Shown piece after piece: positions 2,144 through 8,208 of a stretch of 37,623 bases of DNA; position 1 is the stretch's first letter; every line of letters begins with the position of its first letter. The notes beneath the pieces were generated by a model. It did no database searches. It saw nothing but the letters and a program-made list of their open reading frames with translations, and was not told where the DNA came from. The translations under genes were made by a program, and so were the position numbers. Origin of the DNA: Deltaproteobacteria bacterium (GTDB taxonomy: Bacteria > Bdellovibrionota_C > UBA2361 > OMII01); NCBI GenBank assembly GCA_947488865.1, contig CANLCB010000008.1, positions 1 to 37,623 of the forward strand. The letters are read 5' to 3'.

Positions 2144-3529
2144 ATGAAGATTAATCCTGTAATTTTTAGAGAATACGACATCCGTGGAACCGTTGGCACC
2201 GAGCTCTCACCAGAGTTCGCGCACACCTTGGGACGCGCTTACGCGACCCTTGCCATCGAGAACAACCTTAATCGCATCGGCATCGGATACGACTGCCGAT
2301 TAAGCTCTCCAGACTACGCGGAAGCTCTCGCTCAGGGCATGGCGGACGAGGGACTCGACGTGGTGTTGACGGGCATGGGCCCCACCCCGCAGCTCTATTT
2401 CTCTGTGTTCTCACAGGACCTCGGCGGCGGCATCCAGGTTACTGGCAGTCACAATCCTCCGGACATGAACGGATTTAAGATCCTCTTGGGGAAGAAGACC
2501 CTTTCAGGGCCGCAGATTCAAGACATGATGGTCCGCTGCGAGCGCGTGCTCACAAAAGCGCCTGCCGCTAAAAAGGGAACTATCTCAAAGCTCGATATCA
2601 GACCTGATTACATTAAGTACCTTATCGAGAACTCAAAGCAACACATGGGACCTCGCAAGCTCAAGGTGGTGGTGGACGCAGGCAATGGCGTCGGCGGAAT
2701 GGTCGGCCCCGAAGTTCTGCGCGGCCTCGGCGTAGAGGTCATCGAGTTGTTCTGTAACCCAGATGGCAATTTCCCGAACCACCATCCAGATCCAACGGTT
2801 TTGAAGAACGTTCAGGATCTGATCGCCTCGGTTAAACAACACAAGGCTGATTTCGGTATCGGATGGGACGGAGACGCGGATCGTATCGGCGTTATTGACG
2901 AACGCGGAGAGCCAGTCTTCGGCGATATGCTCGTCCTCATCTACGGTCGGTCGATCCTCAAGGAGAAGCCAGGCGCCACCATTATCGGCGACGTAAAATG
3001 CTCCAGCCTCCTCTTTGAGGATCTTAAGGCGAAGGGAGCTAACGCTATCATGTGGAAGACTGGCCACTCCCTCATTAAAGGAAAGCTCCTCGAGACTCAT
3101 GGAGACCTCGCCGGAGAGATGAGTGGTCACATCTTCTTCAAGCACCGATTCTTCGGATTCGATGACGCGCTTTACTCTTCATCCCGACTTGTCGAGATTA
3201 TGAGCCACCACACGGGAACCCTCTCCTCGTTGATCTCGGATCTACCAGCGATGGTATCAACCCCAGAGATTCGCGTGGATTGCCCCGAGGAGATCAAGTT
3301 CAAGATCGCTCAAGAGGCGCAATCTGCCTTCAAGGAGTTTAAGGTAGACACTATCGACGGTGTTCGAGTGACGTTCGATAAGGGATGGGGATTGGTTCGC
3401 GCGTCGAACACCCAGCCAGTGCTCGTAATGCGCTTTGAGGCAACGACTCCAGATCTCTTAGAACAGTACAAAAAGACCGTTATCGATCGCATTGAGAACA
3501 TCAAAGCGAAGCTTTCGACAGCAGCTTAA
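2144..3529 (+). CDS. Phosphomannomutase/phosphoglucomutase
   Basis: The 461-residue protein belongs to the alpha-D-phosphohexomutase superfamily (AlgC/ManB type), which interconverts hexose 1- and 6-phosphates for cell-envelope sugars or glycogen metabolism. All four signature sites are visible. The phosphoserine loop is TGSHNPPDMNG with Ser102. The metal-binding loop DGDADR has Asp242, Asp244 and Asp246. The sugar-specificity loop is GEMSGH (324-329). The phosphate-binding loop is SNTQP (421-425). Length is normal for the family. AAGGAG eight to thirteen bases upstream of ATG 2144 is a good ribosome-binding site. The gene follows the SurA-like gene by 33 bases and may be cotranscribed with it. 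Choice between mannose and glucose as the main substrate cannot be settled here, but alpha-glucan genes at 18-24.7 kb would use glucose 1-phosphate. Confidence 0.92.
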   Translation: MKINPVIFREYDIRGTVGTELSPEFAHTLGRAYATLAIENNLNRIGIGYDCRLSSPDYAEALAQGMADEGLDVVLTGMGPTPQLYFSVFSQDLGGGIQVTGSHNPPDMNGFKILLGKKTLSGPQIQDMMVRCERVLTKAPAAKKGTISKLDIRPDYIKYLIENSKQHMGPRKLKVVVDAGNGVGGMVGPEVLRGLGVEVIELFCNPDGNFPNHHPDPTVLKNVQDLIASVKQHKADFGIGWDGDADRIGVIDERGEPVFGDMLVLIYGRSILKEKPGATIIGDVKCSSLLFEDLKAKGANAIMWKTGHSLIKGKLLETHGDLAGEMSGHIFFKHRFFGFDDALYSSSRLVEIMSHHTGTLSSLISDLPAMVSTPEIRVDCPEEIKFKIAQEAQSAFKEFKVDTIDGVRVTFDKGWGLVRASNTQPVLVMRFEATTPDLLEQYKKTVIDRIENIKAKLSTAA

Positions 3530-3535
3530 TTTTCA

Positions 3536-3569
3536 CGCTCTCGCGGCTCCTGTGGGGGCCGCGAGAGCG
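3536..3569. terminator. Twelve-base-pair perfect GC-rich hairpin, no U-tract
   Basis: CGCTCTCGCGGC (3536-3547) pairs exactly with GCCGCGAGAGCG (3558-3569) across a 10-base loop. It starts 7 bases after the phosphohexomutase stop and ends 11 bases before the UvrA-like start. No T-run follows on either strand, so it may be a stability hairpin or a weak terminator. It also lies where a ribosome-binding site for the next gene would be expected, and none is visible. Confidence 0.6.
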
Positions 3570-3580
3570 TCCCGCTCCCC

Positions 3581-5599
3581 ATGGCCACAATAACCGCATT
3601 CTCCCCGTACACCTATTACGCTCGGGCGAACGGTTCTTCGATCCCTCTCTCTGATATCTACCCCGAATTCACCTTCGAGCTACCCGAAACACCGGGCATC
3701 CATCTCAGCGAAGATTCCACCGAACAAGCGGCTCGAACGTGGCTTCCAGCACTTCAAGCACACATCGCCAATCGAGATATTTTCATTCAAGCGCTCGCCA
3801 ACGGGGACATACCTCCGATATCACCGTTATCATCGCGAGATATTCCACTCATAGCGCTCTCCCCTTCATTGGGGCTCCTGCACGCGTCGTCATCTTCGGT
3901 CCTTGATTTCTTAGGCCTGGTAGAGCCATTGGCGGATCTGGCCAACACACAACGAAAACGGTTGTGCCCTTCTTGCGAACGCGAAATCGAACGATCCCTC
4001 ACAACGTCCGATTTAATGGGAACGCTGACCGCGCAGCTACACGACCAGAAAGTATCTATGCGTCTACGAGGCCCTACCTCTGATGTCGCGACATGGAGCG
4101 CCTCAAAAGGCTTTACCCCTCAAACGAGCGGCGAGCACGAATCATCAATTCTGTTGGATACTTTTGTGTGCGACGCGCCCTCCTTCCAAACACGAGCGCC
4201 TCTTATCCGTTCGGCTTTGCAAGTGCCTGGAGGCATACTGGAAGTCCTCACTCCGGAAAATGTCGTTCGGTTCGCTTTTGGAGGTTGGTGTGATCAATGC
4301 TTAAAGCCAGCGCCACCGTTATCACGACGAGACATAGAAAACGCCCTTCGAAGTGGACACGGAGACGCACTGTCCCTACTTCTCGGAACCTTATCGCTCC
4401 GAGAGATACTCGCTCTGCCCATAGAAAGGCTCATCCACACACTCTCACCTCAAGAAACCTCCCCCCTTGAGCCTCTATCACAGATCGCGCACGTGGGGTT
4501 AAGCACGTTAACTCTAGGGACCCTTCTGTCGAACGTTTCGATCCACCATCTCGCCACCTTAGTGGCTTTTCATCTGCTACACGCGCGGTCATCAGGCACG
4601 GACATCGCGGTATTGGATATTCCAAGGGCAATACTTAGCCAATCTCAACTGGAGAAGATTGAAGCGTCCATGACAAGCGCTCGCTCGAAGCAAACTATCG
4701 TCTGGTTGGGCGGTCCACAGACATCCACGATTATTTTCCAACAACCATCGTCAGGAAAAAACTCTGCAAGCTTGGGAACGCTTTCTCTTCTCGAGCAATC
4801 CGTCCCTCCCTATGACATATCATTAGATTCCATAACATGGATCTCGACCAGCCCGTCTAGCGACCCTCAGAGACACGCCCAAGCGATTGCGCTTGCTTTG
4901 ACACATGAAGCCAACACGCCATGGATATTTGAATCCACGAAACGTATCTCAGCACATTTCGTCGAATGCTTCCCCCGCCCCACCACCTCGTCTCGCCTAG
5001 TAGCTCACGACATAGGCGTGCTCGATCCCCTCGCTAAAATGTACGCCGCCTCCCATCAAGCCAAGATGCTTGGAATTCAGGCCAAAGATTTTATCATCGG
5101 CCAAGCCAAGCAAACAAAATATGTATGCCCTGACTGCAAGGGAGCCGGCGTTAGAATAGTTCGCGATACATACTCCTACTTGCCGGCACTATCTCCCTGC
5201 CTGCACTGCTGGGGAATACGTTTCAGAAGTCCCATCAAGGAGATCTCCTTTAAAGGTAAAACTCTAGGAGAGATTCTCAACTCAACGATCAAAGCGTGCG
5301 CGCCAATCCTTCAAGCTCTCCCGAAAATGACCGCGGTTCCCGAACTTGTAGAGCTGCTAGGACTTGCCTCAATTCCGATGGGAATGCCCGTAGCGGCTCT
5401 AACACCCGCGGAGGTACGACGACTATCTATTCTCAAGTTGATGCTTGCGGCCACCGCATCAACTCCCTCGATCATCGTACTCGAGGAGCCGTTTGTAGAC
5501 CTTTCTCAATCTGAGGCAGATCACCTCGTTGCGGCTCTACAACACCCGTCTACTAAGGGGCGCGTCTCGTGGATCCTCGTATCTTCACAGAAACCATAG
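3581..5599 (+). CDS. Degenerate UvrA-like protein lacking P-loops
   Basis: The 672-residue protein follows the UvrA domain order in eroded form. ALSPSLGLL (93-100) followed by a segment rich in small residues corresponds to the UvrA stretch after the first P-loop. CPSC (129-132) and CDQC (237-240) stand where UvrA has zinc-module cysteines. A first signature/Walker B region survives only as TLLSNVS... and DIAVLDIP (about 314-348). PLAKMYAASHQAKMLGI (483-499) resembles the UvrA segment before its C-terminal zinc finger. CPDC and CLHC (516-519, 540-543) flank an LPALSP stretch, followed by FKGKTLGEILNSTIKA. The second signature is reduced to ALTPAEVRRLSIL, and Walker B to IIVLEEPF (631-638). 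Neither Walker A motif is present, so ATP hydrolysis of the usual kind is unlikely. UvrA is normally about 940 residues. The frame is intact, so it is probably maintained rather than a decaying pseudogene. No Shine-Dalgarno precedes ATG 3581. Function is unknown. Confidence 0.72.
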   Translation: MATITAFSPYTYYARANGSSIPLSDIYPEFTFELPETPGIHLSEDSTEQAARTWLPALQAHIANRDIFIQALANGDIPPISPLSSRDIPLIALSPSLGLLHASSSSVLDFLGLVEPLADLANTQRKRLCPSCEREIERSLTTSDLMGTLTAQLHDQKVSMRLRGPTSDVATWSASKGFTPQTSGEHESSILLDTFVCDAPSFQTRAPLIRSALQVPGGILEVLTPENVVRFAFGGWCDQCLKPAPPLSRRDIENALRSGHGDALSLLLGTLSLREILALPIERLIHTLSPQETSPLEPLSQIAHVGLSTLTLGTLLSNVSIHHLATLVAFHLLHARSSGTDIAVLDIPRAILSQSQLEKIEASMTSARSKQTIVWLGGPQTSTIIFQQPSSGKNSASLGTLSLLEQSVPPYDISLDSITWISTSPSSDPQRHAQAIALALTHEANTPWIFESTKRISAHFVECFPRPTTSSRLVAHDIGVLDPLAKMYAASHQAKMLGIQAKDFIIGQAKQTKYVCPDCKGAGVRIVRDTYSYLPALSPCLHCWGIRFRSPIKEISFKGKTLGEILNSTIKACAPILQALPKMTAVPELVELLGLASIPMGMPVAALTPAEVRRLSILKLMLAATASTPSIIVLEEPFVDLSQSEADHLVAALQHPSTKGRVSWILVSSQKP

Positions 5600-5749
5600 G
5601 GCCTTCGATTTTGGGAAACGCGCATAAAGCAGCTTTTTCAACCACTTACAAGGCCATCACTAGAGCACAAACAAACAGTTTCGAACCATAACAGATGAGG
5701 ATGAAGACGCGTGGCTCATGTGCCCCTCTCTTCAACACACGAGGTTTTT

Positions 5750-6067
5750 ATGGTCGGCCCTCAAAAGAAACACAGAACCGAGCGCGGAGAAGCAGAGATG
5801 CTTTTCTTCATCACCGTGGTGGTAATTGCTGCTGTTATATCAGGCGCGATGTGGACGTTCGGCTGGGTACGAGAAACCAAAGACGCGCGGGTAGAAAGAA
5901 TCGACCGAGCTCGCATAGATCGTAATAAGCCAGCCCCGTTCGTCGTGCGAACAGACCCTGGCGAATACTATATCACCTGCCAGAAGCCTCTCTGGTCACT
6001 ATTGAGTAAAGAACTCCCGTGCGAAATCCTTGAGGAATCGTATCGAGAGCTCGAGCTCCGTCCGTAA
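5750..6067 (+). CDS. Small single-span membrane protein, unknown function
   Basis: Three in-frame starts are possible: GTG 5711 (118 residues), ATG 5750 (106, GAGG five bases upstream) and ATG 5798 (89, GGAG about ten bases upstream). I list the middle one. The N-terminal segment QKKHRTERGEAE is charged, then MLFFITVVVIAAVISGAMW forms one membrane helix. After it come a basic region with several Arg and Asp residues and a C-terminal part with two cysteines (ITCQKP, ELPCEILEE). The positive residues beside the helix do not fix the topology. No family is recognised. The gene converges on the small minus-strand gene that ends at 6093. The 150 bases before it hold no clear terminator for the UvrA-like gene. 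Confidence 0.5.
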   Translation: MVGPQKKHRTERGEAEMLFFITVVVIAAVISGAMWTFGWVRETKDARVERIDRARIDRNKPAPFVVRTDPGEYYITCQKPLWSLLSKELPCEILEESYRELELRP

Positions 6068-6909: not shown

Positions 6910-8208
6910 ATGTCTCAATCTGAGTCCAACACCTTTAAAGATCCAAGCGATGACGCCGTAGCGGCTGTCTTTGGGCCTAGCGACCACAACATTCGCAAAG
7001 GCGACATAGACGACGACGCACGCAAGATCTGTTACCGACTGCAGAGATCCGGTTTCAAAGCATACGTTGTAGGTGGTGGAGTTCGAGATCTTCTCTTAGG
7101 CAAAGAGCCAAAAGATTTCGACATCTCCACTGACGCGACTCCGCGAGAGATCAAGTCGCTCTTCCGCAACTGTCGTATTATCGGGCGCAGATTTAAACTC
7201 GCTCACCTCTACTTCGCTCACGGAAAAAACATCGAAGTGTCGACTTTTCGTGACACCATCGACCCACCGGAACCAAGTGAGGGCGATGAACCGCAAGCTG
7301 GCCCAATCATCAATGACAATATCTACGGCACAGAAGCCACTGACGCTTTCCGTCGGGACCTCACCATCAACGGACTCTTCCTCGACGTCGCGACGATGGA
7401 GATCCTCGACTACGTCGGGGGAATGCAAGATCTACAACAAGGTATAGTACGCGTCATTGGCGAACCGACTCAGCGATTCAGGGAAGACCCGGTGAGAATG
7501 CTACGGGTAGTCAGACACTCCGCTCGAAACGGATTCCGTATTAATCCCGCGTGCTGGGACTCGATCCTACGAAACTCTGAGCTCATAACTCAGAGCTCCC
7601 AAGTTCGTGTCTTCGACGAGCTCAAAAAAGATTTCTCCTCAGGGTGCTTGCTCACTATTCTTCACCTACTCGGGGAAACCGGGTTGCTAGAATACATCCT
7701 TCCCGAACTCCTTGAAAACAACGGCCGGCTGATGAGCGCTGAGAGTGATTTCAGTCAGTGCCTTGAGCGGATCGACGACCTCGTGGTTGAGGGCGAGCCG
7801 ATTTCACCGACCGTTATTCTTACGATTATCGCGATGTTCACGGCCGGCGATTCCATCTGGCTAGCGGATCTCGCCGAAAAACTTCCTGAGGCAAGCGATC
7901 TAACTGAACGACTCGCGGCTTGCTTTACTCGACTCGTGGTTCCCAGAAAAGAGCGCGAGCGAATTCAACTACTTCTTGGACTGTGGGCTCGAGTACGTTC
8001 GGTTCCAGTTAAAGCCTTGAAGCCAAACTCTCTTCGGCGCAACTCTCTGCTGCCAGATCTTATCGCGCTCCTCGAGGTAACGTGCCTCACGAAAGAGGAC
8101 GCTCAACGCGTAAATCTTCTTCGACCTCTCTTGCACCTTGATGAAGAGCATGGTCATGATGGTGGACATCACAGGTCTCAGCCACATCAACGGAAACATC
8201 ACCGTTAA
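6910..8208 (+). CDS. pcnB: Poly(A) polymerase I (PcnB)
   Basis: The 432-residue protein is a class II nucleotidyltransferase. The head domain has [10 protein letters not shown] (55-64) and the catalytic carboxylates KDFDIS (Asp69, Asp71). Further landmarks are [38 protein letters not shown] (the flexible basic loop of the PcnB/CCA group) and [10 protein letters not shown]. PcnB adds poly(A) tails to RNA 3' ends and so speeds decay. The PcnB name over the tRNA CCA-adding enzyme rests on overall length and the Arg-rich start of the neck region; the two are hard to separate without alignment. The C-terminus is unusually His-rich ([19 protein letters not shown]), a different form of the basic tail seen in PcnB. 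It is followed by lptB after five bases, so the two are probably cotranscribed. Confidence 0.85.

Follow-up and report, generated by a model that had tools for sequence, protein, structure and literature searches.

An intact UvrA-derived reading frame without ATP sites in a class-wide mfd-surA-pmm locus, and a second degenerate UvrA relative that co-occurs with it

UvrA is usually described through its two ATP sites, so what is an uninterrupted UvrA-like reading frame that has neither of them doing a few kb from mfd? The DNA examined here (the window, the whole stretch analysed, 37,623 bases) is contig 8 of a 1.47 Mb genome that is 70% complete and comes from a bacterium in an uncultured class of deltaproteobacterial type, and the genomes with which it was compared are largely metagenome assemblies. 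We call the UvrA-derived gene family that includes window gene 3581-5599 family A, and the protein which that gene encodes P0001. The relevant features of the locus are as follows:

1-525, + strand: 3' end of mfd (TRCF domain, PF03461); the rest lies off the contig, and sister genomes have a full-length mfd
1025-2110, + strand: surA-like gene, second in the conserved locus
2144-3529, + strand: pmm (phosphomannomutase type), directly upstream of the family A gene
3535-3570, + strand: strong hairpin, stem of ~16 bp, between pmm and the family A start
3581-5599, + strand: family A gene, UvrA-derived, predicted ATPase-dead protein of 672 aa (P0001)
5711-6067, + strand: small membrane-anchored-looking protein, the conserved next gene in the genus
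6910-8208, + strand: pcnB, the next conserved locus marker

The family A frame starts with ATG and runs for 672 codons with no internal stop, when 25 stops would be expected at its own base composition (probability of no stop 5e-12); the other five frames over the region have 18-43 stops each. A sequence-only reading of this DNA had placed an intact UvrA-like frame at 3581-5599, and its coordinates are exact. When P0001 is searched as a single sequence it matches UvrA significantly in its C-terminal part only (TIGR00630 positions 702-882, E 2.5e-17; UvrA structures such as 2r6f, E 1.3e-15), and its score of 62.4 bits against TIGR00630, the UvrA equivalog model, is below the curated cut-off of 729.8. 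A profile built from 10 orthologous sequences, on the other hand, aligns with UvrA end to end and collinearly in hhalign (629 columns, probability 99.7, E 3.4e-27), so the profile match that the earlier reading had proposed as a check was obtained. None of ten family A members has a Pfam domain above cut-off. A wider taxonomic search with the family A alignment A3 found two relatives, both Deltaproteobacteria. P0001 had no match at E <= 1 among the PADLOC defence families, and a reading of family A as a UvrA-like anti-phage defence system was dropped on that ground. As judged from these alignments, P0001 is UvrA by descent, yet it fails the tested features of the UvrA enzyme family.

Which parts of UvrA have been lost and which kept can be read from the profile alignment and, for residues 113-262, from a domain model (all features are on the + strand):

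3710-3736, +: Walker A1 place, now EDSTEQAAR (residues 44-52; GLSGSGKSS in UvrA), lost (profile alignment)
3917-4366, +: residues 113-262, Zn1 plus a domain matching UvrA's UvrB/Mfd-binding domain (domain model and Foldseek)
3965-3976, +: first cysteine pair of Zn1, C129/C132, invariant in ten genus orthologues
4289-4300, +: second cysteine pair of Zn1, C237/C240, invariant in the genus
4373-4378, +: gap at residues 265/266, where the UvrA insertion domain and Zn2 are missing (profile alignment)
4535-4558, +: signature I place, now VSIHHLAT (LSGGExQR in UvrA), lost
4607-4627, +: Walker B1 remnant AVLDIPR, Asp kept, Glu lost
4847-4873, +: Walker A2 place, now TSPSSDPQR, lost
5126-5209, +: Zn3 module, C516/C519 and C540/C543, invariant in the genus
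5399-5422, +: signature II place, now LTPAEVRR (LSGGExQR in UvrA), lost
5477-5494, +: Walker B2 remnant VLEEPF

Both UvrA-type ATP sites are absent from all ten genus proteins save for acidic Walker B remnants; the Walker B2 Glu is retained in P0001 and is Y, L, R or A in most sister proteins. At the motif positions the profile alignment agrees with the earlier description of both Walker A loops as gone and both signature/Walker B regions as eroded. The four CxxC pairs that had been noted are all present (C129/C132, C237/C240, C516/C519 and C540/C543), as is the FKGKTLGEILNSTIKA stretch at residues 557-572, and nowhere is the protein better conserved than in the signature-II region around Zn3. 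The statement that UvrA domain order is kept holds for the order itself, which is collinear, but not for completeness: the insertion domain and the Zn2 module are missing in one large gap at residue 265/266, and so is the tail that UvrA has beyond Walker B2. P0001 is ~250-270 residues shorter than UvrA, in line with the ~270 first given. In sum, family A shares with UvrA (TIGR00630, PDB 2r6f/3pih/3zqj) the collinear domains, Zn1, a UvrB/Mfd-binding-type domain and the signature-II/Zn3 core, and lacks its Walker A loops, LSGGE signatures, full Walker B pair, insertion domain, Zn2 and tail.

Is such a stripped gene maintained? It is present in nine of 11 sister genomes of the genus; in one of the other two the contig stops just past pmm, and the other genome is 60% complete. 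The orthologues are only 23-38% identical to P0001, whereas the flanking genes (surA and the small protein aside) are 65-93% identical, but all their frames are open, the eight Zn1/Zn3 cysteines are invariant in 10/10 proteins and none has regained an ATP motif. Comparison of sister genomes gives a pN of 0.34-0.46 and a pS of 0.73-0.80 (these are reported in place of an exact dN/dS, synonymous sites being saturated even for the closest pairs), and differences at codon position 2 (0.30-0.39) are about half those at position 3 (0.67-0.71). Family A exceeds its neighbours in dN, pmm by a factor of ~8-11 and surA by a factor of 2-3; it evolves fast but not neutrally. A uvrA pseudogene or a chance frame was rejected on the low pN relative to pS, the codon-position pattern, the invariant cysteines and the open frames. 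Selection had been argued from the uninterrupted frame alone; the orthologues and their substitution patterns, including the comparison across orthologues that had been called for, show in codon terms that family A is maintained by selection. With the profile alignment they bear out the core of the sequence-only reading, an intact, selected, ATPase-dead UvrA paralogue.

Elsewhere in the class the same locus holds family A proteins of 595-935 aa, some of them with intact ATPase motifs. All ATP motifs are present in the f17 proteins (861-935 aa) and both Walker A loops in that of f7 (830 aa); Walker A1 alone is left in families f2, f16 and f22, and no Walker A in f1, f6, f11, f12 and f19. Those motif-free proteins that can be placed lie apart from one another in the genome tree, and the ATP sites were therefore lost more than once. 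Zn1 and Zn3 are each complete, with their two CxxC pairs, in 14 of the 14 A proteins that have no Walker A at all. Loss of both Walker A loops in several lineages with Zn1 and Zn3 always kept, as these alignments have it, is a new observation and the strongest argument for selection on a function other than ATP use. The class spans UvrA relatives from the motif-intact proteins of f17 (~860-935 aa) to the motif-free ones of the genus (672 aa), and with such a series one could tell the UvrA functions that depend on ATP from those that are scaffolding, and ask whether a UvrA relative free of ATP can be recruited by transcription-coupled repair.

The family A gene had been described as lying about 3 kb from mfd, and the mfd end is indeed 3.06 kb upstream. 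That there was no direct link to mfd proved too cautious, since an mfd-surA-pmm-(UvrA-like) arrangement is found class-wide. Genus members have mfd, surA, pmm, family A, the small protein, pcnB, lptB and rpoN, in that order. The order mfd-surA-pmm-A recurs in families f2, f16, f17, f19 and f22; f7 has surA-pmm-A, f24 a partial mfd-surA-pmm-A with the intact start of A after pmm, and f9 two genes inserted between pmm and A. In f6 (G016) A is on the other side of mfd, still within a few kb of it, and in f12 (G022) surA is followed by an A gene with an in-frame TAA. The gene thus belongs to a class-wide mfd-surA-pmm locus, which is described here for the first time. Families f3, f4, f5 and f13 have no UvrA relative after pmm, and since mfd-surA-pmm is kept also where A is absent, A may be linked to mfd only passively. 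The TAA of G022 splits its A copy (L126 10086-11990) into parts of 454 aa and 180 aa with all four CxxC pairs kept; on sequence it may be an assembly error, a broken gene or a split gene.

Could family A then be a relic under weak selection, on its way to being lost? A dN ~8-11 times that of pmm, the complete absence of A (and of family B, below) from f3, f4, f5 and f13, and the in-frame TAA of G022 would all fit such slow decay. However, frames that stay open down to 23% identity, invariant cysteine sets, fewer substitutions at codon positions 1-2 and the repetition in several lineages of the same outcome, ATP motifs lost and Zn modules kept, make it improbable.

What was kept bears more directly on function. 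Residues 113-262 of P0001 fold confidently alone in a domain model (pLDDT 80.5), and the top six PDB matches of this model in Foldseek are all UvrA at its UvrB/Mfd-binding domain (3uwx/4dfc/3fpn among the matches), with a prob of 0.99 for 4dfc, the core UvrA/TRCF complex. At best 0.0035, the Foldseek E-values are modest, but the order of the matches is in line with the sequence alignment and leaves little doubt that the modelled fold is of the UvrB/Mfd-binding type. A full-length AlphaFold model of P0001 made from three sequences is poor (mean pLDDT 42.8) and was relied on for residues 130-240 only; its best Foldseek matches are likewise UvrA, so the structural match that had been suggested as a check was found with both models.

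The contact residues within and beyond this domain are less well preserved. For the UvrB-contact pair (E. coli numbering), E222 is lost in 10/10 genus proteins and R216 kept in 6/10. Among the UvrA DNA-contact arginines R712, R722, R724 and R730, only the 722 position is basic in 10/10 genus proteins, the other three being lost or mostly lost, and this makes it doubtful, as far as residues can tell, that family A binds DNA in the manner of UvrA. The earlier description of P0001 as a non-catalytic DNA-binding or regulatory relative therefore stands in its first part, with the ATP motifs absent, and is not backed by the contact residues in its DNA-binding part. In E. coli UvrA, joint mutation of the four arginines abolishes both global and transcription-coupled repair, as does deletion of residues 131-248, which form the domain that binds UvrB and probably Mfd, whereas without the insertion domain or the proximal ATPase global repair suffers more than transcription-coupled repair (PMC3025350). 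The latter two parts are missing from family A and the UvrB/Mfd-binding domain is kept, in keeping with a function connected to Mfd.

We therefore favour, tentatively and at somewhat less than even probability, a reading of family A as a non-catalytic UvrA-derived scaffold, a putative Mfd-linked accessory that probably works with family B (below). An extra, originally ATP-competent UvrA homologue would have settled in the mfd-surA-pmm locus of the class ancestor and then been remodelled into a non-catalytic scaffold (a pseudo-ATPase). What the genus protein gave up would be ATP binding, the insertion domain that reads damage and most of the DNA-contact arginines; what it kept would be the Zn1 module around the domain that meets UvrB/Mfd and the Zn3/signature-II core. 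Such a scaffold would assist transcription-coupled repair or the release of RNA polymerase, linked to Mfd and probably to B, and we infer that it would act by protein-protein contact, not as a damage sensor. Against this stand the residue losses (E222 in 10/10, R216 in 4/10 and three of the four DNA-contact arginines lost or mostly lost), an mfd linkage that may be passive, mfd-surA-pmm being kept without A, and at least nine class genomes that have neither A nor B.

If A kept a partner-binding domain without an ATPase, might it occupy UvrB or Mfd as a decoy and so restrain repair by canonical UvrA? The layout is that of a classical dominant-negative paralogue. UvrB and UvrC are present elsewhere in the window genome, and its canonical UvrA, sought as had been advised, is a fused double protein of 1813 aa with four Walker A loops (L044, G000:C43 958-6396, - strand). 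Against the decoy, the surface with which UvrB binds UvrA is normal in the genus, whereas in A E222 is gone and R216 partly so. Mfd has changed as well in D2, its UvrA-binding domain:

L053, L055, L058, L060, L061: Mfd D2 changes in the five genus members with full-length Mfd, Lys for Arg165 (the UvrA/D7 contact) and Phe185 replaced

A canonical contact is thus not obvious on either side, and of the alternatives weighed here the decoy seems to us the least probable. The D2 changes are a hint only, because Phe185 of Mfd is also lost in families without A and only Lys for Arg165 is genus-specific; as a case of co-evolution with A they were set aside as weak.

Family B is a second, different UvrA relative. 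Most of its genus members have ~690-760 aa, and nearly all sister genomes carry it, ten with a complete or almost complete copy and one with a fragment:

G007:C221 9339-11531: family B gene L071/L123, with orthologues L111-L119
L101, L120, L064, L065, L106, L107, L140, L141, L144, L050: further family B genes

In the genus copies of B Walker A1 is gone, Walker A2 and an LSxGE-like signature I are kept in most, and the Walker B2 Glu is lost. The B locus is fixed across the class, adjoining a transglutaminase/TPR/MoxR-type block and a CDP-alcohol phosphatidyltransferase gene. In a tree of the better preserved copies A and B lie outside the canonical UvrA clade (support 100/99); branches are long and finer placement is unsafe. 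L105 (G045) groups with A in this tree and was left out of the B counts, and G045 is outside the A/B comparison that follows. Where both loci could be read, 18 genomes have both A and B, nine have neither, two have A only and none B only (Fisher p 5e-6, uncorrected for kinship; phylogeny explains part of it). B is thus a degenerate UvrA relative with a fixed locus of its own that co-occurs with A, and it too is new here. The co-occurrence suggests that A and B share a joint function. It was not used as proof of a complex, since on the genome tree it reduces to 2-4 independent contrasts and a sign test is not significant. Neither B nor its neighbour gene was found in the window genome (70% complete), so the B locus is probably missing from the assembly.

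The main rival to the Mfd-linked accessory is that A and B form their own heteromeric nucleic-acid-binding or regulatory complex outside excision repair, the mfd neighbourhood being accidental. That A and B co-occur, that B adjoins the transglutaminase/TPR/MoxR-type block and not repair genes, and that A has not retained the residues with which UvrA contacts UvrB and DNA would all fit it; moreover the canonical UvrA is a covalent double, with which mixed dimers look unlikely. It does not account for the Zn1 of the UvrB/Mfd-binding-like domain being kept in every A without Walker A, or for the short distance of a few kb between A and mfd, found even in G016 with A on the opposite side of mfd, and we regard a free-standing complex as rather unlikely. 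The A-B pair probably has a job that needs a UvrA scaffold and not a motor. A bolder version of the Mfd-linked accessory would make A and B the halves of a heteromeric coupler independent of ATP hydrolysis, used by Mfd instead of or upstream of canonical UvrA, with Mfd's UvrA-binding surface adapted to them (in the genus Arg165 is replaced by Lys and Phe185 is absent, the UvrB surface being normal); this is a long shot.

How does family A compare with other UvrA relatives? UvrA2 proteins lack the UvrB-binding domain and keep two ATPases and the insertion domain. Family A resembles UvrA2 (class II, PDB 2vf7) in being a shortened UvrA homologue of uncertain function, but it is the reverse on all three points, with a UvrB-binding-type domain present and the ATPases and insertion domain absent; P0001 was for this reason not assigned to UvrA2. 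The fused double UvrA (NF001885-type; G000:C43, 1813 aa) is homologous to A, in the same genome and likewise without an insertion domain in its second half, but it has four intact Walker A loops, and A and B branch outside the canonical clade. Ecm16/DrrC-type resistance proteins (PDB 7sh1) are, like A, UvrA-like and outside canonical excision repair. They bind nucleotide (Ecm16 was solved with ADP; PMC10192343) and are tied to antibiotic clusters, whereas A lacks an ATP site and is not flanked by such a cluster. The closest parallel is within Mfd itself, which carries at its N-terminus a UvrB whose ATPase motifs are dead (PMC7835731): this module and A are both repair scaffolds, A putatively so, with dead ATPase motifs and a partner-binding domain kept (PMC7835731), but the Mfd module is UvrB-derived and fused to a translocase. 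By this analogy family A would be the UvrA counterpart of Mfd's ATP-free UvrB module. In the open-access literature we found no ATPase-dead UvrA paralogue.

Some smaller features deserve mention. The fused double UvrA (~1650-1900 aa) recurs through the class, and reading of its sequence indicates that the second half has no insertion domain. A GC-rich hairpin without a T-run precedes the family A start in four genus members (the window and L053, L060 and L061), and in the window (3535-3570) no clear ribosome-binding site follows it; between pmm and family A it could be a terminator, an attenuator or a processing site. The protein encoded at 5711-6067 has no Pfam match above cut-off; it has one hydrophobic stretch and is conserved at this place in the genus at 38-56%.
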